From the NCBI GenBank assembly GCA_025041175.1, contig JAKCFJ010000002.1, positions 62,001 through 126,000 of the forward strand: a DNA stretch of 64,000 bases, written 5' to 3'. This DNA is from Halobacteriales archaeon YIM A00010. GTDB taxonomy: Archaea > Halobacteriota > Halobacteria > Halobacteriales > Haloarculaceae. Each line of letters begins with the position of its first letter. Position 1 is the stretch's first letter. A program made the translations under genes and the position numbers. Of the stretch, positions 27,843 to 57,064 are shown one piece after another. Below the pieces are notes generated by a model. It worked only from the letters and a program-made list of their open reading frames with translations, did no database searches and was not told the DNA's origin.

Positions 27843-28535
27843 TCAGATTAGCTGATTCCATGCAAAGGCGAATGATCTGAGCCACTCGTTTGCAGTTTCT
27901 GCGTGGGCATTGCTGAAGCAGTGTGAGAACGAAGAAGTTCTCCGTTTTATCTCACGAAAGACACGTTCGACGCTGTTCCGATTTCCATGACGTTCGTATC
28001 TGAAATCGAAGCCGTGTCGACGACACGCATGTTGTACTGAATGTGAATCATCAACGAGAACTACAGCGTTCACAAGACGCATGCGTCTTGTGTGCCCACG
28101 AGAACTGCATGCAGTTCTCGGGTCATCGTCAACATCATGTTTCTCAGCAATCTTAGTGAGAAATGAATGGGCGAGAGCCTTATTCGTGGTCGGCTCAAGC
28201 GTTGTATGGAGCGATTCGTTCGTGTCAGGATCAACTGCAGCGTACAGCCAATACTGCTCATCGTTGAGTCGGATCACGGTTTCGTCAACCGCAATGTGAT
28301 CCGGACTTCGTCCACCTTCGGGCTGTAGATCGGCCTTGTGAACCCAATTGTGAACGGTCGAACGAGGCCGTTCAACACCGAATACCTCAAGAATAGCAAC
28401 GGTATTCGAAAGAGATAGACCAGCAAGATGGAGCTGAATACCGAGCTTCATCAACAGTCGCGGTGTTGCTTCTCGCTCCATAAAATTCACGTCGATGTCG
28501 TCCAAACAACCGTTGAGGCGGTCGTTTTTGGGCAT
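27843..28535 (-). CDS. IS6-family DDE transposase with a 19-residue insert
   Basis: 230 residues. HTH part LHLAGLSLSNTVAILEVFGV and RPRSTVHNWVHKADLQPEGG; catalytic core HIAVDETVIRLNDEQYWLYA (D1), AVVLVDDSHSVQHACRRHG (D2) and RHGNRNSVERVFREIKRRTS (E). All three acidic residues are present. Between KHDVDD and AVVLVDD there are 19 extra residues (DPRTACSSRGHTRRMRLVN) coded by two perfect palindromes. The decayed copy at 8979 lacks them. The frame is kept; whether the enzyme still works is unknown. Confidence 0.9.
   Translation of the reverse strand: MPKNDRLNGCLDDIDVNFMEREATPRLLMKLGIQLHLAGLSLSNTVAILEVFGVERPRSTVHNWVHKADLQPEGGRSPDHIAVDETVIRLNDEQYWLYAAVDPDTNESLHTTLEPTTNKALAHSFLTKIAEKHDVDDDPRTACSSRGHTRRMRLVNAVVLVDDSHSVQHACRRHGFDFRYERHGNRNSVERVFREIKRRTSSFSHCFSNAHAETANEWLRSFAFAWNQLI
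28068..28124. repeat. Twin-hairpin insert in the IS6 transposase (57 bp)
   Basis: Two perfect 22-bp palindromes, 28071-28092 (CACAAGACGCATGCGTCTTG plus TG) and 28099-28120 (CGAGAACTGCATGCAGTTCT plus CG), joined by 6 bp. On the transposase strand it starts GACCC and ends GAAC. Compare 39020-39079 and 56679-56732. Confidence 0.9.
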
Positions 28536-37032: not shown

Positions 37033-37443
37033 TCAGGCCCGGTGCTGAGTATCGGTCTCTGTGTCAACGGGATCTTTGATCACCGCCTCGATGTTGTATC
37101 TGTCCGGATCAAAGAGATATGCTGCGTAGTATTCCGGACCATATTTGGGCCTCAACCCGGGTTTGCCGTTATCTCGGCCACCATTGGAGAGTCCAGCTCG
37201 ATAGAAATCTCTGACTGCCTCTCGGTCAGGCGCAGCAAATGCGAGGTGGAATTGCGCGGGAGGAAGGGGTATATCCGGCTCGGACACTTTGATGGCCAAT
37301 TTATCGCTTCCTCCTGGGAGACCGTATCCGACGGCCGATTCGAACGACCACGAGCGGGTGAAGCCGAGGGCTCCTAATGCAGCGTCATAGAACGATGCCG
37401 CTCGCTGGAGGTCTGTCACGGCAATGGATACGTGGTGAAGCAT
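37033..37443 (-). CDS. VOC family (glyoxalase-like) protein
   Basis: 136 residues from ATG 37443 (MLHHVSIAVTDLQRAASFYD). Two beta-alpha-beta-beta-beta units: the first with ALGALGFTRSW, the second starting FHLAFAAPDREAVRDFYRAG and ending YYAAYLFDPDRYNIEAVIKD. The metal ligand positions are His 4, His about 70 and Glu about 121. Members include glyoxalase, dioxygenases and antibiotic-binding proteins; the sequence does not tell which. Confidence 0.85.
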   Translation of the reverse strand: MLHHVSIAVTDLQRAASFYDAALGALGFTRSWSFESAVGYGLPGGSDKLAIKVSEPDIPLPPAQFHLAFAAPDREAVRDFYRAGLSNGGRDNGKPGLRPKYGPEYYAAYLFDPDRYNIEAVIKDPVDTETDTQHRA

Positions 37444-37738
37444 GGGAGTTTTCAATCGGCGAATCGGTCCTCCATACGGTGGAGACCTGATTCGCAACGG
37501 CGATGATCCCGATTTTAGTGGGAGTTCTATTATAGGCTTTGGTGAATCGCCATATAGCGTTAGGTTGAGGATTTTAGCTGTATTGTAGGCGGTAAGCCCC
37601 CTTTCTCACCGCCCGAACGGAGTGAGGGCGTAGGGAGGGGATACACCGCCGTCATCACCATTCATACACTCTTCAATTGCTGGCTCACAGGCCCACATAT
37701 CGACACATTTATGTTGAAACAATGTGTAAACACCGGTA
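37444..37738. other. Left flank of the TnpB element
   Basis: No gene. TAAGCCCCCTTTCTCACCGC at about 37592 could form the left-end hairpin of the TnpB transposon. TTTGGTGAATCGCCATATAG (37539) resembles the non-B half of repeat B4. Confidence 0.4.
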
Positions 37739-37879
37739 ATGGATAGACACGAAATCGAAGGCAGCGAAGTCATCGAAGGCGAGGTGAAAGCAACTGGCAA
37801 TGGGGCACATGTTCTCGTTCCAAAGCGGTGGCGTGGTGCAGAGGTGAAGGTCGTCCGAACGTCTGACCCCGACGAATAA
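37739..37879 (+). CDS. DUF2080 family transposase-associated protein
   Basis: 46 residues: HEIEGSEVIEGEVKATGNGA then HVLVPKRWRGAEVKVVRTSD. It is complete. The NGAHVLVPKRWRG core matches DUF2080, a small AbrB-like DNA-binding protein found just before tnpB in haloarchaeal IS1341-type elements. It ends 3 bp before the tnpB start and is surely co-transcribed. Confidence 0.85.
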   Translation: MDRHEIEGSEVIEGEVKATGNGAHVLVPKRWRGAEVKVVRTSDPDE

Positions 37880-37882
37880 TTC

Positions 37883-39022
37883 ATGTACTACAACTACAGG
37901 TATCGATTGAACCCGACAGCAGACCAGCGTAAGACGCTGAACTACCACCGTGATACCTGTAGACAGCTCTACAACCACGCTCTCTATCGTTTCAATCAGA
38001 TTCCTGAATCGGCGGGGACACTCAATCAGCGCGTGCGAACAATCCGTGACGAACTCCCCGACCTCAAAGGCTGGTGGGACGCCTTGACTGACGTGTATGC
38101 GAAAGTGCTCCAACCCACCGTCATGCGGATCGAGCACAACGTCACGGCGCTCGGCGAACTCAAGGATCGTGGCTACAACGTCGGTGAACTCAAGTGGAAA
38201 CCACCACGGGAGTTCCGCAGTTTCACCTACAACCAGTCTGGCTTCGAACTCGACAAGAAGGGTGGTCAGACTGTGTTGTCCCTCTCGAAACTGGCGAATA
38301 TTCCGATTCGAATGCACCGACCACTCCCCGAAGCAGCGACGATCAAAGAGGTGACACTCAAGAAAGAACCGACGGGTGAGTGGTTCGCCATCTTCGGGAT
38401 TGAATTCGACCGAGACCCACCGGAGAAACCTGACGAAATTACTGACGCAGTAGGGATCGACGTGGGCATTCTCAACTATGTTCACGACACCGACGGAACG
38501 GCTGTCGGGTCGCTTGACCTCACTGACGAACGCGAACGACTGGAACGCGAGCAACGGACGTTGTCGCGCAAACAGCACGGGTCTAACAACTGGAAAAAGC
38601 AACGTCAGCGCGTTGCAGAGTGTCACGCCACGATCAAACGCAAGCGGCGGGACTTCCTCCACAAACTCTCGACGTACTACGCTACTGAGTACGATCTCGT
38701 CGCCGTTGAAGCGCTCAACGCCACGGGGCTGATGGAACTCCCATCGAACAGTCGTAATCGCGCGTCAGCTGCATGGGGTACCTTCCGGCGGATGCTCGAA
38801 TACAAGTGTGAACATAACGGCACACATTTCGTCGCTGTTGAGCCAGCTGGAACGACCAAAGCGTGTGCAGCCTGCGGTGTCTCGACCGATAAACCATTGT
38901 GGGTCCGCGAACACTCCTGTCCAAGCTGTGGCTTCGAGGCCGATCGAGACTGGAACGCAGCCTACAACATTCTTTCTCGGGGAATCAAGCACGTAGGAGT
39001 GGGACACTCCGAATTGACGTGA
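37883..39022 (+). CDS. tnpB: RNA-guided endonuclease TnpB (IS1341 type), C-terminus cut by a hairpin insert
   Basis: 379 residues. N-terminal WED-like strand (YRYRLNPTADQRKTLNYHRD), helical recognition region, RuvC parts AVGIDVGILNYVHD (Asp 193) and YDLVAVEALNATGL (Glu 276), zinc ribbon C328/C331/C346/C349 and EADRDWNAAYNIL (third Asp). The catalytic set is intact. TnpB cuts DNA guided by an RNA from the element's right end. The TGA at 39020 is the first codon of a 60-bp hairpin insert; after it the same frame resumes as PVETALPTGTTNVPAQRVVE and ends at 39184. Without the insert the protein would have 413 residues. There is no tnpA nearby. Confidence 0.92.
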   Translation: MYYNYRYRLNPTADQRKTLNYHRDTCRQLYNHALYRFNQIPESAGTLNQRVRTIRDELPDLKGWWDALTDVYAKVLQPTVMRIEHNVTALGELKDRGYNVGELKWKPPREFRSFTYNQSGFELDKKGGQTVLSLSKLANIPIRMHRPLPEAATIKEVTLKKEPTGEWFAIFGIEFDRDPPEKPDEITDAVGIDVGILNYVHDTDGTAVGSLDLTDERERLEREQRTLSRKQHGSNNWKKQRQRVAECHATIKRKRRDFLHKLSTYYATEYDLVAVEALNATGLMELPSNSRNRASAAWGTFRRMLEYKCEHNGTHFVAVEPAGTTKACAACGVSTDKPLWVREHSCPSCGFEADRDWNAAYNILSRGIKHVGVGHSELT

Positions 39023-39079
39023 TCCGAGAGACCTTCGGTCTCTCGTCATCACGAAAGGCGCAAAGCACCTTTCGAACGA
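39020..39079. repeat. Twin-hairpin insert in tnpB (60 bp)
   Basis: CGAGAGACC-TTC-GGTCTCTCG (39025-39045) and CGAAAGG-N9-CCTTTCG (39052-39074), flanked by TGATC and GAACGA. The length is a multiple of three, and the tnpB frame is the same before and after it. It introduces an early TGA. Confidence 0.88.
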
Positions 39080-39199
39080 CCTGTGGAGACCGCGCTCCCT
39101 ACGGGAACTACGAACGTTCCTGCACAGCGCGTCGTGGAAGCAGGAAGCCCCACCCTCAACCGCGAGCCGTCAGGCGAGCGGTAGGGTGGGGTAGTTCAC
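39020..39199 (+). ncRNA. Probable reRNA (omega RNA) region of the TnpB element
   Basis: TnpB guide RNAs come from the 3' end of tnpB and the right transposon end. Here a terminal hairpin (CCCCACCCT 39148-39156, AGGGTGGGG 39183-39191) precedes the end GTAGTTCAC (39191-39199). The guide would be read from bases just after 39199. The exact 5' end is unknown. If the twin-hairpin insert is included, it enlarges the RNA. Confidence 0.5.
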
Positions 39200-39285
39200 A
39201 AGGGCTGTGGCAGTGTCCAACGGCTTCGCTATCATGGACTCCTTCGAGAGTGTGGCTAGATTGTCTCAGAGTAGCGTCGCAAGCT

Positions 39286-39516
39286 ACCGGATCTTACCCC
39301 GGAAGTCGACGCAGTCTAGTGATTCACCAGAGCCATATACAGCCTTCCGGGAATTTGGCTTTCAATCTAAATTCCGTAACTGATCGTGCATTAGAAATCT
39401 ACCTAGCCGACATCAGGCTAGGTGGAATCCCTAATGCACGGTTGGGTTGAAAAATAGCCTGGCGGCCCAAATTTCGAGGGAGTCTATGCATGAGAAATCC
39501 ATCTGCCTGACTTCAG
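39286..39516. repeat. Inverted copy of B4 fused in tandem to family B copy B11
   Basis: 39286-39416 is the inverse of 25227-25358. It ends CTAGCCGACATCAG and continues at once with GCTAGGTGGAATCCC, the start of B11, which ends CATCTGCCTGACTTCAG. The joint lacks the first bases of B11, as in the B1-B2 pair. Confidence 0.85.
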
Positions 39517-39850
39517 CTGTTGAGGAATTCTCGCCGCTGTGGGATAGATCGAGTAGCATACCGATAGACGCCGTCTCGTGGCAAGAATTTTCAAATTACA
39601 TCCAGACAGATGTGAGAAAAAGCCATTTACAGAAATCCATCCTCCGAAGTAGGGGGAAGCAGAAACAACGATTCCATATATCGACATACAATTTATTCTC
39701 GCAATGCATACTACAGCGGATTAAGCTATTTGTTTCGTTGTTAGCGTCACGTCCACGACCGCCTATCGAGGGGGATCTGCGCCGGTAGCCATCGGTCGTC
39801 AACGTACTCACTGCAATCGACCGACCTAGCTGCGTTCGTCTCGCCCGTTA

Positions 39851-39949
39851 TCATGGTAGCGCCTGGCAGCACTCAGATTTTGTCAATCTCCCGTTATCGT
39901 ACAGTGCGATGAGAGCACTCGTATCGACAAATATCTGGTTGTATTCGAC
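39851..39949 (-). pseudogene. PIN-domain toxin (VapC-like), N-terminal remnant
   Basis: VEYNQIFVDTSALIALYDNG is the first catalytic motif of PIN RNases (VDTSALIAL with the metal-binding Asp). After 32 residues it stops; no start codon is present. A short acidic frame just upstream (40095-39976, MEQGSQPLLEEATKHDEIGE) might be left from an antitoxin, but I do not recognise it. Confidence 0.5.
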
Positions 39950-40461
39950 ATAGAAAGCAACGTTCTGTTACTGTACTAGGTCGCTCGGCTCGATAGCGCA
40001 CACTCAGAGCCGTCCGGTCGCCGAGCAACGACATCCTCACCGATCTCGTCGTGCTTGGTGGCCTCCTCCAATAGCGGCTGGGAGCCCTGTTCCATGGATT
40101 GGCTGCGTGGTGTGCAGTTTGTCGGTGGTACGTGGCCATCTCGTGGACGCCACGGAAGTGTTCAGTTGTGATCGGTCTCGAACCCGATATCGAGTGATCG
40201 TCTTCTATTTTACGCCCAGGACTCGTAACTGATAAATCTAATATCGCTATACAAAAATATCCGCCAGCGCCCCTCAGCTTCGGAGTATGGATTTCTGTAA
40301 ATGACTTTTGTTCACGAAATGTGCCTTGGAACGTGCCGTGAGATGTCGATAGAAGGCTTCGTTCGGTGTGCTACTCAATCGGACTCCCGGCTCAGATTCT
40401 CTTAGAGTGCTCACTGGAGTCGGGTCTCGGTCGCCTCGATCGCCACCGAGGACGAGGAGAC
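39950..40461. other. Gene-free stretch
   Basis: Nothing recognised apart from the possible antitoxin remnant mentioned under the PIN entry. Confidence 0.35.
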
Positions 40462-40570
40462 CTGAAGTCGGCTAGGTCGATTCGTCATGCACGACAACTT
40501 CCGAAATCTATCTTGACAGTCTAAATTTCGTGAGATGATGAGCATAACTAATCCACCTGCCCAGCTTCAG
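40462..40570. repeat. Family B element, copy B12
   Basis: 109 bp: CTGAAGTCGGCTAGGTCGAT to TCCACCTGCCCAGCTTCAG. Confidence 0.85.
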
Positions 40571-40609
40571 GATTACAACCGCGAGTCAGACTGGATCACA
40601 GTGAACAAA

Positions 40610-40990
40610 GTGAACTACCTCACCTTACCACGCTCGGGGCTACTTGCCCCTTGCTTGTTGAGGGTGTCGCCAGACTACGTCTAGCTGTCACCGGCCTGTG
40701 GTCGGTTGCTTGAGGAGCTTTGCTCCTCACTGCTAACCAGATCGCGCTGCGTTCTGGTGATGGGATCTCGCAAATCACTACGTGATTTGCTGGATACGGG
40801 AAATCTTCGATTTCCGTGATCTCGCAAGAGCAACGCTCTTGCGGACCTCGTGGAGGTTCCCTCCGCTCAGTGACGAGACACTTCGTGTCTCGAACCACTT
40901 GACTCTGAGGCGGTTCACGAGCGACATGGCCACCGTTCTCACCGAATCGTCTCACTTCAAGCCGATGGGACGAGACAGGGCCGTCGATCG
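40610..40990 (-). mobile_element. TnpB-type transposon right end with a hairpin array (remnant)
   Basis: Read on the minus strand the segment ends GGTAAGGTGAGGTAGTTCAC at 40610, nearly the right end of the intact TnpB element (GGTAGGGTGGGGTAGTTCAC). Just before it the frame GDTLNKQGASSPERGKVR resembles the TnpB tail GSPTLNREPSGER. The remaining 250 bp is a chain of hairpins and no tnpB catalytic sequence is left. Possibly a PATE-like non-autonomous element. Confidence 0.5.
40636..40892. repeat. Array of ten mini-hairpins
   Basis: Stems of 4-10 bp with mostly 3-nt loops at 40636-40650, 40672-40682, 40690-40706, 40711-40729, 40736-40758, 40770-40790, 40799-40815, 40823-40843, 40843-40860 and 40874-40892. 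Examples: GCAAATCAC-TAC-GTGATTTGC, CGCAAGAGC-AAC-GCTCTTGCG, CGAGACAC-TTC-GTGTCTCG. Stem sequences all differ; linkers are mostly short (0-21 bp). Confidence 0.88.
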
Positions 40991-41026
40991 CCATACTGGC
41001 GCTCGTTCGAGCCGGTAAAGCGGCTG

Positions 41027-43660
41027 TTAGCGGCCGATATCGAGCAATATGTAGTCGTGGTCGGGAGTGTAGCGCCGGAACAGGAGACTGTTCGTGAGCA
41101 CCGACACCGACGAGAACGCCATTGCTGCTGCGGCCAATACCGGCTGGAGCAGTCCGAGCGAGGCCAGCGGAATCATCGCCGTATTGTACCCAAGCGCCCA
41201 GAAGAGGTTCTGTGTGATCTTCTGGAGCGTACCATCGGAGATGCGAATCGCTTTCACGACATCGAATGGATCGTCACGCATCAACGTCACGTCTGCGGCC
41301 TCGATCGCCACGTCAGTACCCGAGCCGATCGCTGTTCCAACGTAGGCAGTCGCGAGTGCTGGTGCATCGTTGACCCCATCACCGACCATCATCGCTCGCT
41401 TCTCTTCTGACTGGATGTCGTCGACGACAGCAGCTTTGTCCTCGGGAAGGACCTCTGCACGAACATTCGCGGGATCGATCCCGACCTGTTCGGCAACCGC
41501 ACGCGCCGTACGCTCGTTGTCGCCGGTCATCAGATGGATCTCGACGCCCCGATCGTGCAGCGCCGAGACGGCTTCGGTGGCGCTCTCTTTCACCGTGTCT
41601 GCATCGGCCACGAGACCGATCAGTTCGCCCTCATATGCGACGAGCATCGCGGTCTTGCCCTCGGTCTCCAGACGTTCGAGATCATCCTCGGCGGGCGCGG
41701 GATCGATGTCATTGTCACGCATGAGCTTGCGGTTGCCGACGAGTACCTCACCATCGTCGACAGTCGCGCGGACCCCGTGGCCCGGCACGTTCTCGAAGTC
41801 GATGGGATCGGGCACGTCGATCCCCCGCTCGGTGGCCCCCTCGACAATCGCCTGCGCAAGGGGGTGCTCACTCCCGGATTCGGCACTCGCCGCGATCCGG
41901 AGGACGGCCTCCTCGTCAGGTCCCGATACTCTATCAAGTCCGGACCGTTCTTGGAGTGCCTGCGCACCGCCGTCGGTCGCCGTCTTGGAATCATCACCAT
42001 TGGTGGCAGTGTGAGTTCCATCAAGGGAAACGACGTCGGTCAGTTCCATCTCACCCGCAGTGAGCGTCCCGGTCTTGTCGAACACCACCGTATCAACATC
42101 CTTCGCGCGTTCGAGGATATCGCCTCCCTTGAATAGGACGCCGTTTTTCGCCCCGATGGAGGTGCCGACCATTGTTGCGGCAGGCGTTGCGAGTCCCAAT
42201 GCACACGGACAGGCAATCAGTACTGCCGAGGCGAAGACAACCACTGCGAACTCGAAGATTGATACCGTGCCGCCAGCGACCGCCGGACCACCTTCGACAA
42301 GCCCCCACAACGGGAGCGCGCCGACGAATCCAGCGAGTGCTTCGGGGAACAGATACCAGACGATGCCCCAGAGTAGCGCATTCGCAATCACGATCGGGAC
42401 GAAGTACGCCGAGATGCGATCGGCGAGGTTCTGAATGTCAGGCTGTCGGCTCTGTGCCTCTTTCACCGTCTGAACGATCTGCTGGAGCGCCGTATCAGAC
42501 CCGACCTTGGTGGCTTCAACAGTGAGGACGCCGTTTTCGTTGATGGTCGAACCCACCACCTCGTCGCCTACCTTCTTCTCGACGGGCACCGACTCGCCGG
42601 TGACCATCGATTCGTCGACCGCTGACTGCCCGTCGACAACGGTACCGTCGGTCGGGATCTGCTCGCCCGGCCGGACCTTTATCCGGTCGCCGACGCCAAC
42701 GTCTTCAAGCGGAACCTCCTCTTCGTTACCCTCCTCGTCAACAACAGTTGCGGTGTCGGCCTCCATTTCGAGCAGTTGCTGGAGTGCCTCGCCGGCTTGG
42801 CCTTTCGAGCGGGCTTCGAGGTAGTTGCCGAGCGTGATGAACACGAGGATGAGCGCGGCCGTGTCGAAGTACAGACTCCCCGCGAGCACACCCAGTAGCA
42901 CGACCACCGAGTAGAGATAGGCCGTCGAGGAACCGAGCGCTATCAGCACGTCCATGTTCGCGGTGTGGTTCTTGACGAGCGCCGTGTAGGCGTTCTCGTA
43001 GAACGGCCGCCCGAGTACGATTTGGACGGGGGTCGCAAGCAGGAACTCCACCCAGCCGAACTCCACGCCGAAAATCGTCTCGGGGAGTGCGCCGCCGCCC
43101 AACAACAGCTTCTCGACCATGAACGCGATCAGCGGCAGCGATAGCGCCGCGCCGAACAGCGTGAGTCGAAGTTGGCGGCGGATTTCGCCCTCGCGTGCGG
43201 CATCACGGCGGTCCTGCTCGGATTCCTCACTCCCGTCGCCGCGCACGGGCGAGTAGCCGGCGTCCTCGATCGCGTCGTACAACTGCTCGCGGGTAACCTC
43301 TGCTGGGTTATACTCGACAGTCGCCTCGTCAGTCGCGTAGTTAACCTCTGCCGAGAGAACGCCCGGTACGTCCGTGAGTGCTGTCTCATTCGTTTCGGCG
43401 CAGTTCGCACACGTCATATCTGTGATCCCGATCGACGCCGAGGTACTCACTGCGCTGTACCCGGCGTCCTCGATCGCTGTATAGACCTCCGCCAGCGTCG
43501 TATCCGTGGGATCGTATGCAACGCGCCCCTCGTCAGTGGCGAAATTGATCGTCGTCTCGTTCACCCCATCGAGCGCTTCGACAGCCTGCGTTATCGTCTG
43601 GGAACAGTTCGCACAGCTCATCCCCTGAATATCGAGCTGTGCTGTTCGTGATGTCATCAA
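41027..43660 (-). CDS. copA: Copper-translocating P-type ATPase
   Basis: 877 residues. Two N-terminal heavy-metal domains (GMSCANC 13-19, DMTCANC 81-87), eight membrane helices, the ion-path motif [20 protein letters not shown] (about 484), phosphorylation site [18 protein letters not shown] (Asp about 527), HP motif [15 protein letters not shown] and hinge [20 protein letters not shown]. The CPC plus C-terminal YN and MxxS motifs ([27 protein letters not shown]) define Cu+ exporters (PIB-1). It removes cytoplasmic copper. The sensor gene lies 101 bp upstream on the same strand. Confidence 0.95.
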
Positions 43661-56489: not shown

Positions 56490-57064
56490 ATGGAACTCGA
56501 CATTCGACGCCACCTTGCTGATCTTTCTCGTTCGGATACTGTTCGAGAAGTAGAAACGTACGGTGTCGAACGATCACGAACGGTCGTGCGACTGGGTAGA
56601 CAAGTGCGATCTACAGCCGATCACTGGCGCTTCGTCGAACTACGTTGGATTGATGAGCAGCAGTATTGGCTGTCCGCAGTCACCAGAACTCTGTGAGTTC
56701 TGGCTGGCTCATCAGACTACCGTCTGATGAACGCTATCGATCCTCAAACGAACAGACTGCTGCACAAACGGCTGTTTTCGACGGCTACAATCACCCTTAC
56801 TGAAATATCTCTGCGAGAAGTGACCGGAAACACGACGTCAAGAACGCCATGTCTCTCGTTGATGGAGCAAAACAGCTTCAGTCGGCACTCCGTCGCTGAA
56901 GACTCCAATTCCAGATACAAACGCCGCGGACATCCGAATGTCGAACGTGTCTTTCATGAGGTAAAACACCACACTTCTTCGTTTTTAAATTGTTTCAGTC
57001 ACGCGAAGCCAGAAACCACAGAATCGTGGCTCTAATCTTTTGCTGTTTGGCATAATGCTACAAA
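56490..57064 (+). pseudogene. IS6-family transposase, decayed copy with hairpin insert
   Basis: Related to 27843-28535: LDIRRHLADLSRSDTVREVE, TYGVERSRTVVRL, WIDEQQYWLSAV, then after the insert NAIDPQTNRLLHKR, and RGHPNVERVFHEVKHHTSSF LNCFSHAKPETTESWL. Several stops and shifts. A 54-bp twin-hairpin insert splits the first catalytic region. Confidence 0.8.
56679..56732. repeat. Twin-hairpin insert in a decayed IS6 transposase (54 bp)
   Basis: CCAGAACT-CTGTG-AGTTCTGG (56683-56703) and TCATCAGAC-TACC-GTCTGATGA (56709-56730) joined by 5 bp; begins GTCA and ends AC, so that the whole reads GTCAC...GAAC. The intact transposase has nothing at this point. 54 is a multiple of three, but the insert contains an in-frame TGA. 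Confidence 0.88.

Follow-up and report, generated by a model that had tools for sequence, protein, structure and literature searches.

A chain of mini-hairpins on a decayed TnpB end of a haloarchaeal genome as a probable record of nested twin-hairpin insertions

The hairpin array considered here lies in the genome of Halobacteriales archaeon YIM A00010 (G000; 5.97 Mb, seven contigs), within a stretch of 64,000 nucleotides (the window, G000:C2:62001-126000) to which coordinates refer unless a contig is named. A preliminary description of this DNA reported a chain of ten mini-hairpins beside a TnpB-type transposon end. The chain is real: on the minus strand of 40636-40892, eight perfect and two imperfect hairpins occur, nearly all with 3-nt loops, as follows.

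40874-40892, minus strand: perfect hairpin (stem search)
40852-40864, minus strand: perfect hairpin (stem search)
40823-40843, minus strand: perfect hairpin (stem search)
40799-40815, minus strand: perfect hairpin (stem search)
40770-40790, minus strand: perfect hairpin (stem search)
40711-40729, minus strand: perfect hairpin (stem search)
40672-40682, minus strand: perfect hairpin (stem search)
40636-40650, minus strand: perfect hairpin with a 5-nt loop (stem search)
~40736-40758 and ~40690-40706, minus strand: near-perfect hairpins with a mismatch or bulge (reading of the array)

In the array, five perfect stems with a 3-nt loop reach 7 bp or more, against a mean of 0.014 and a maximum of 1 in 1000 dinucleotide shuffles, and a scan of stem density found no comparable 257-nt stretch anywhere else in the window, the array being the densest. 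Folding of the minus strand as RNA and as single-stranded DNA, which the preliminary description had recommended, gave -115.7 kcal/mol (z -8.6) and -66.2 kcal/mol (z -9.1), respectively, with no shuffle equally good in either case. The C-GAA-G and C-GTA-G loops noted at that time are present on this strand. A survey of 1.26 Mb of G000 plus targeted stretches counted, in the 1.26 Mb, 82 clusters of at least two hairpins against 20 in a Markov control and 18 clusters of at least three against none. A chance or compositional origin of the stems, in favour of which the high G+C content speaks and nothing else, is refuted by these shuffle and genome controls; it was rejected, and its probability is negligible.

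A search of G000 with the array found 45 places, the array locus itself counted, that match different pieces of it. The ten hairpins are not independent of one another and group into about five two-hairpin units, the general plan of which is a hairpin, a linker with CA at its end, a second hairpin and often GACA. The linkers GAGATCAC and CGTATCCA, to which attention had been drawn earlier, were found again at other copies. The parts of the locus and the element used for comparison are given below, with hairpins in square brackets.

40610-40664, minus strand: TnpB-type right end, CCCTCAACAAGC ... GGTAAGGTGAGGTAGTTCAC, the 3' end of a decayed element (similarity to TnpB ends)
40665-40760, minus strand: U2, TC[ACCAGAACGC..GATCTGGT]TAGCA ... 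[GCTAGACGTAGTCTGGC]GACA, split by U1 after TAGCA (comparison with unsplit copies)
40686-40730, minus strand: U1 (45 nt), nested in U2, [TGAGGAGC AAA GCTCCTCA]AGCA[ACCGACC ACA GGCCGGT]GACA (covariance model)
40761-40815, minus strand: U3, [GGAAATC GAA GATTTCC]CGTATCCA[GCAAATCAC GTA GTGATTTGC]GAGATCCCA (solo and unfused copies elsewhere)
40819-40870, minus strand: U4, CTGA[GCGGAGG GAA CCTCC]ACGAGGTC[CGCAAGAGC GTT GCTCTTGCG]AGAT (copies elsewhere)
40871-40892, minus strand: first hairpin and linker start of U5, [CGAGACAC GAA GTGTCTCG]TCA (comparison with other TnpB elements)
40893-40912, minus strand: probable remnant of the last tnpB codons, CTCAGAGTCAAGTGGTT, compared with CTCCGAATCAACGTCGTC in L002 (by eye, weak)
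37883-39199, plus strand: intact neighbouring TnpB element, with tnpB at 37883-39022, the U5 pair at 39025-39072 and the right end to 39199

Judged by sequence, the array is what remains of the right end of an IS1341-type TnpB element, now decayed and without tnpB. The right end at 40610-40664 matches the TnpB end at C4:228481 with 89% over 66 nt and, as the preliminary description had stated, the array runs into a near-copy of a TnpB right end, GGTAAGGTGAGGTAGTTCAC agreeing at 18/20 positions with GGTAGGGTGGGGTAGTTCAC, the end of the intact element at 39199. That element, whose TnpB domain (PF07282) lies at G000:C2:100774-100971, carries none of U1-U4. At the array locus, tnpB is absent save for the probable remnant, and inspection by eye upstream of the array saw no left element end, the right end alone being recognised. 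In a search for a syntenic relative within the genus, the ATPase gene beside the array was conserved and nothing more, and no empty site for the array was found. A separate repeat of ~290 bp at 40278-40570, MITE-like or like a PATE (palindrome-associated transposable element; PMC3119063), has many partial copies in the genome and genus, and a seemingly related stretch lies at 39380-39450.

The units take the following general forms: U1, [GAGGxxC nnn GxxCCTC]RRGCA[RCCGGxC nnn GxCCGGY]GACA (45 nt); U2, TC[ACCAGA..TCTGGT]TAGCA[RCCAGA..TCTGGY]GACA (mostly 57 nt); U3, [GGGAAATC..]GTATCCA[GCAAATC..]GCGA; U4, CTGA[GCGGAGG..]GAGGTC[CGCAAGAGC..]AGAT; and U5, [CGAGAG..]TCATCA[CGAAA..]AACGAC. The U1 of the array scores 63.1 bits (E 3.5e-14) against covariance model R1. 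U2 occupies the CCCA|CCCT site of the TnpB right end and is found unsplit at the identical site in L007/L014 as well as in right ends of Halorubrum, Halogranum, Halorientalis and Halocatena. U4, of which eleven copies with 83-90% identity exist elsewhere, is nested in the TCA|TCA linker of U5, and this TCATCA linker is empty in the intact TnpB element (39025-39072). U5 takes the corresponding place after tnpB at 39025-39045, in L002 and in L092. U3 is unfused in L002/L009 and solo in L039, L041 and L075; in the array its first hairpin appears, by eye, to be fused with the second hairpin of U5. In L002, ~80 bp separate U5 from U3, and both contain a hairpin around ATCTTCGAT or ATCGAAGAT. Because one hairpin joins U5 and U3 here and two separate ones stand in L002, a deletion between the two units is suggested, again by eye. 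An outer stem, GGGGTC..GACCCC, surrounds the solo U3 copies, which thereby form a three-way junction, and U3 stands directly beside a tnpA gene in L041/L107. Two further twin-hairpin units, of other families, [CACAAGACGC..]TGCCCA[CGAGAACTGC..] and [CCAGAACTC..]CTGGC[TCATCAGAC..], occur at 28071-28120 and 56683-56730.

The number of hairpins varies among such TnpB ends. L024 and L036 have no units, the intact element of the window has U5, L007 has U2, L002 has U5, U4 and U3, and the array locus has all five, units often standing at the same sites across ends. The repeated acquisition of hairpin units proposed in the preliminary description is thereby upheld: the units recur elsewhere, filled and empty versions of sites exist, and two units are nested. 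Of the two outcomes that the preliminary description named as refuting, a lack of variable hairpin numbers at such ends and shuffles as rich in stems, neither occurred. That the array consists of mobile units nested on a defunct TnpB end is given a probability of about 0.8. A TnpB right end would have lost tnpB, leaving a PATE-like remnant, in which about five short mobile twin-hairpin units would have accumulated one after another, some of them inside earlier ones. In an order taken solely from the nesting, U5 would have been followed by U4 in the U5 linker, U3, U2 in the terminal stem of the right end and U1 in the U2 linker, and an internal deletion between similar hairpins would have fused U5 and U3; this fusion, like the tnpB remnant, is read by eye. 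The locus is probably a dead end on which twin-hairpin elements have landed and nested, and the array itself is probably functionless.

The preliminary description had also considered a structured RNA. An example of such an RNA would be an omega-RNA (reRNA) in extended form, or a sotRNA, produced from the TnpB right end. In its favour, haloarchaeal omega-RNAs map to the 3' ends of TnpB elements (PMC12558985), which is where the array is found, and U2, which in many genera occupies the interior of the terminal CCCCACCCT/AGGGTGGGG stem, is on that account probably transcribed and tolerated. However, the local tnpB is gone, sister TnpB ends exist without hairpins, and the hairpins are dispersed units that are also present in and between genes. 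Nor was there a relevant Rfam match even at E 10, RF02656 and RF02657 (omega-RNA/sotRNA) giving none in 37300-41100; these models may be too narrow, because the intact neighbouring element is also unmatched at E 10. Covariation in U1 bears on the same question. Among 24 copies (A1), 97.9% of cells are paired and 63 double changes occur versus 20 in shuffles; this alignment was not fitted to the model; pairing did, however, play a part in the choice of its copies, so that the paired percentage is biased and the variety of pair sequences is the informative part. Among 117 distinct copies (A3), in an alignment fitted to the model and hence leaning towards it, 98.3% of cells are paired, with 317 double changes versus 88 in shuffles. 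Wobble pairs are very rare in U1 (1 GU versus 328 Watson-Crick pairs in A1), and this near-absence points to a constraint on DNA hairpins, not RNA. Loop 2 of U1 reads GNA in 75 of the 105 distinct copies, and GNA loops in general belong to the class of stable DNA mini-hairpins of GCGAAGC type. The GCGAAGC mini-hairpin itself has been described (PMC4686876). A dedicated structured RNA is therefore unsupported by the Rfam search and the pairing pattern, and quite improbable as an explanation of the array.

Acquisition of these units is not special to TnpB ends; most U1 copies lie elsewhere, many of them within genes. Model R1 recovers at least 81 U1 copies in G000, at least 1-25 in genus members, and U1 in at least 77 of the 117 sampled genomes and at least 32 of the 49 genera of the order, all these counts being lower bounds from a limited number of scored candidates. 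Outside the order, no U1 was found in the phylum sample at E 1e-8, again among a limited number of scored candidates. The second half of U2, taken as an exact pattern, matched 32 stretches across several genera (Halorubrum, Halomarina, Halolamina, Halocatena, Halogranum, Halogeometricum, Halalkalicoccus, Halorientalis, Haloarchaeobius and Halarchaeum, a Haloquadratum MAG and Actinarchaeum halophilum). Many of these share one spot in the TnpB right end, CCCCA|TC..GACA|CCCT, in the arm pairing with AGGGTGGGG, and in Halorubrum alkaliphilum (L143) and Haloarchaeobius (L160) U2 is found within the U5 TCA|TCA linker, the place of U4 in the array. The U2-like units of Actinarchaeum halophilum (L165, L169), which we take to stand outside the usual Halobacteriales genera, suggest transfer between halophile lineages. 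Viral contigs gave 6 matches to a loose U1 pattern and none to the U2 pattern, and a plasmid search with purL returned unrelated bacterial purL and nothing else. Some of the spread of U1 is passive, because identical copies in G005, G010 and G050 sit within larger repeats. In G010 and G050, larger intergenic repeats (L231-L234, L241-L244) containing U1 and a conserved CCTCGCGCGTGC..GGCACGCGCCACCGC tail have apparently been amplified as a whole. Among the genus members, G002 and G003 have identical match coordinates on C1, as though one assembly contains the other, and G005 has match coordinates on its contig C2 (174907-174968) in common with the Halocatena salina record NZ_CP096020.1, so that the genus is probably Halocatena.

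U1 and U2 occur in frame within conserved genes identified by Pfam, namely those for purL, PEP carboxylase, AMP ligases, cofC, a TANGO2-like protein and GH3. Empty sites were located by searching the joined flanks in genus members, followed by alignment, which revealed that stretches of 51 bp (purL), 159 bp (PEP carboxylase), 57 bp (AMP ligase), 135 bp (cofC), 45 bp (TANGO2-like) and 216 bp (GH3) are absent from congeners. All six length differences are multiples of 3, and the length of one 45-nt unit suffices to keep the frame. In the gene-borne cases that were checked, the translated unit reads forward as D|S..SS.SR..SGD, and this non-exhaustive survey gave no confirmed case of reversed orientation. 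In other genera, in-frame copies are found in genes for purD, aldehyde dehydrogenase, a HerA-like protein, molybdopterin oxidoreductase, histidine kinase, a class I tRNA synthetase and CBS-domain proteins. On sequence evidence, the composition and nesting of the array, the sister ends with fewer units and, from filled versus empty sites, the wider mobility of U1 and U2 can be regarded as established.

The junctions carry information on how insertion might proceed. CA precedes 93 of the 105 distinct U1 copies, versus a CA background of 5% in the genome; the four bases before U1 are GACA in 49, AACA in 13, GGCA in 10 and AGCA in 9 copies, the genomic background of GACA being 0.4%. The U1 end is mostly GAC[ACG] whatever the left flank, and this constancy speaks against a four-base target duplication. 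Such junctions would fit a cut on the 3' side of NNCA and an insertion that leaves the target unduplicated; in entering 3' of a short motif in this way, U1 resembles IS200/IS605-type elements. The single-stranded transposition suggested in the preliminary description is compatible with this target rule, short of proof. Each unit would be a minimal non-autonomous element moving as a single strand; a putative enzyme, acting in the manner of HUH/Y1 transposases, would recognise the two mini-hairpins, cut after NNCA and attach the unit to the 3' side of a CA at a new site without duplicating the target. The CA closing the linker of each hairpin would be the next insertion site, so that units pile up and nest. 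We place this single-strand, cut-after-NNCA mechanism at just under an even chance.

Alternatively, the hairpins might have arisen in place, through slippage during replication, template switching or inverted copying. The stem sequences vary greatly yet stay paired, loops occur in both orientations (GNA and TNC), tandem 45-nt units exist (L230, L068), and the left arm of units in histidine kinase genes agrees with the N-box codons of the host (L230, L235, L240). The common unit length, the linkers (RGCA, TAGCA, GACA) and the presence of families at unrelated sites in 32 of 49 genera need a common source, however, and local formation is unlikely as the origin of the hairpins; tandem growth of units may occur by slippage. 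At the histidine kinase N-box in G010 and G050 (L230, L235, L240), U1 stands at AACA|GCGTGGAACACGG, with its left stem arm identical to host codons (SVEHG), a hint that stems may be templated by, or matched to, the target.

Where mobile units are concerned, ordinary IS200/IS605 TnpA (Y1) might mobilise them in trans, as PATE- or MITE-type derivatives of such elements. The mode of insertion (3' of a short motif, target not duplicated), the subterminal hairpins, the twin-hairpin units adjoining tnpA genes (L107; Halarchaeum L167) and the four Y1 genes of G000 are consistent with this. On the other hand, none of these four tnpA genes is flanked by U1, and Y1 TnpA gave no match at E<=1e-12 in the nearly complete, U1-rich genomes G010 (33 copies), G039 (26), G050 (40) and G074 (35), while the Y1-rich genomes G066 (7 Y1 genes) and G100 (5) are not among the U1-positive ones. 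Across the order sample, no relation between Y1 number and U1 number is visible, and TnpB, present in 10 of 10 genomes checked, has no clear numerical relation to U1. Since these U1-rich genomes gave no Y1 match and the Y1-rich ones do not figure among those with U1, a genome need not encode an IS200/IS605 TnpA for U1 to be there, except in the case that the enzyme spread the units first and was lost later. As sole mobiliser, the resident Y1 TnpA was rejected for failure of co-occurrence, and mobilisation in trans by such enzymes is considered doubtful. In the single-strand mechanism set out above, the putative enzyme need not be the resident TnpA.

The nearest known relatives of the units are the PATEs and short mobile repeats (SMR-A) of Haloquadratum. 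The PATEs of Haloquadratum walsbyi are tnpB-less leftovers of IS605-type elements, free of transposase and target duplication, and SMR-A, with ~110 bp and inverted terminal repeats (the shortest SMR-B has 80 bp), insert preferentially into near-terminal palindromes of IS605-type elements, their mobilisation being called enigmatic (PMC3119063). The locus as a whole, rather than U1 or U2 alone, resembles a PATE in being haloarchaeal and transposase-free with a right end common to TnpB elements, and U2 and U4 resemble SMR-A in their insertion into TnpB right ends, U2 in several genera. In contrast to SMR-A, U1 has 45 nt and U2 mostly 57 nt, two tandem hairpins replace inverted terminal repeats, junctions are at CA, and many copies are in frame within genes, the HqIRS families having been compared by description. 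REP/BIME sequences are high-copy short bacterial hairpins in pairs or arrays, for which a Y1-type enzyme, RAYT (TnpA_REP), is thought to be the mover (PMC2817692, PMC3733652, PMC8266576). Short paired or arrayed hairpins, some within genes, are common to both, but the present units have no GTAG or CGTC at the hairpin foot, their linkers are AAGCA, GGGCA and TAGCA with the end GAC[ACG], their hairpins form direct instead of inverted pairs, and Y1 genes neither track copy number nor were matched in G010, G039, G050 and G074. Rickettsia palindromic elements (RPEs) measure about 100-150 bp and come from obligate intracellular bacteria. They are small palindromes in frame in conserved protein genes (PMC3733652). 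The units here are likened to them by description, as in-frame insertions into conserved genes, six of which have empty sites in congeners, and differ in being archaeal, in having two mini-hairpins in 45 nt and in their tandem and nested arrangement. With IS200/IS605 elements and TnpB omega-RNA right ends (PMC12558985), the array has in common its location on such an end and a similar target rule, whereas the units are gene-free, measure mostly 45-57 nt and occur far from any tnpA or tnpB. U1/U2-type units would seem to work like an IS200/IS605-type or REP-like single-strand element; by the tests made, they belong to neither SMR-A nor REP/RAYT. A literature search, with few subscription journals covered, found the PATE/SMR, REP and RPE papers and no earlier description of in-gene twin hairpins in haloarchaea.

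Tentatively, and with the odds somewhat against it, a haloarchaeal class of minimal mobile elements may be proposed, consisting of twin mini-hairpins of 45-57 nt under DNA constraint, which would insert 3' of NNCA by a putative non-Y1-TnpA enzyme, nest in linkers and routinely add Ser/Arg/Asp-rich peptides of 15-19 residues in frame to essential proteins. The array, puzzling at first, can now be read as a succession of nested insertions, and the underlying family is of greater interest than the array. The covariance model, the target rule and the empty sites provide a sequence handle on the kind of repeats whose movement has been called enigmatic in Haloquadratum, and the in-frame copies in purL, purD, PEP carboxylase and tRNA synthetase represent archaeal genes lengthened by hairpin DNA. 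Finally, because some U1-rich genomes have no detectable Y1, which enzyme mobilises the units can be tested directly, and in a tractable lineage.
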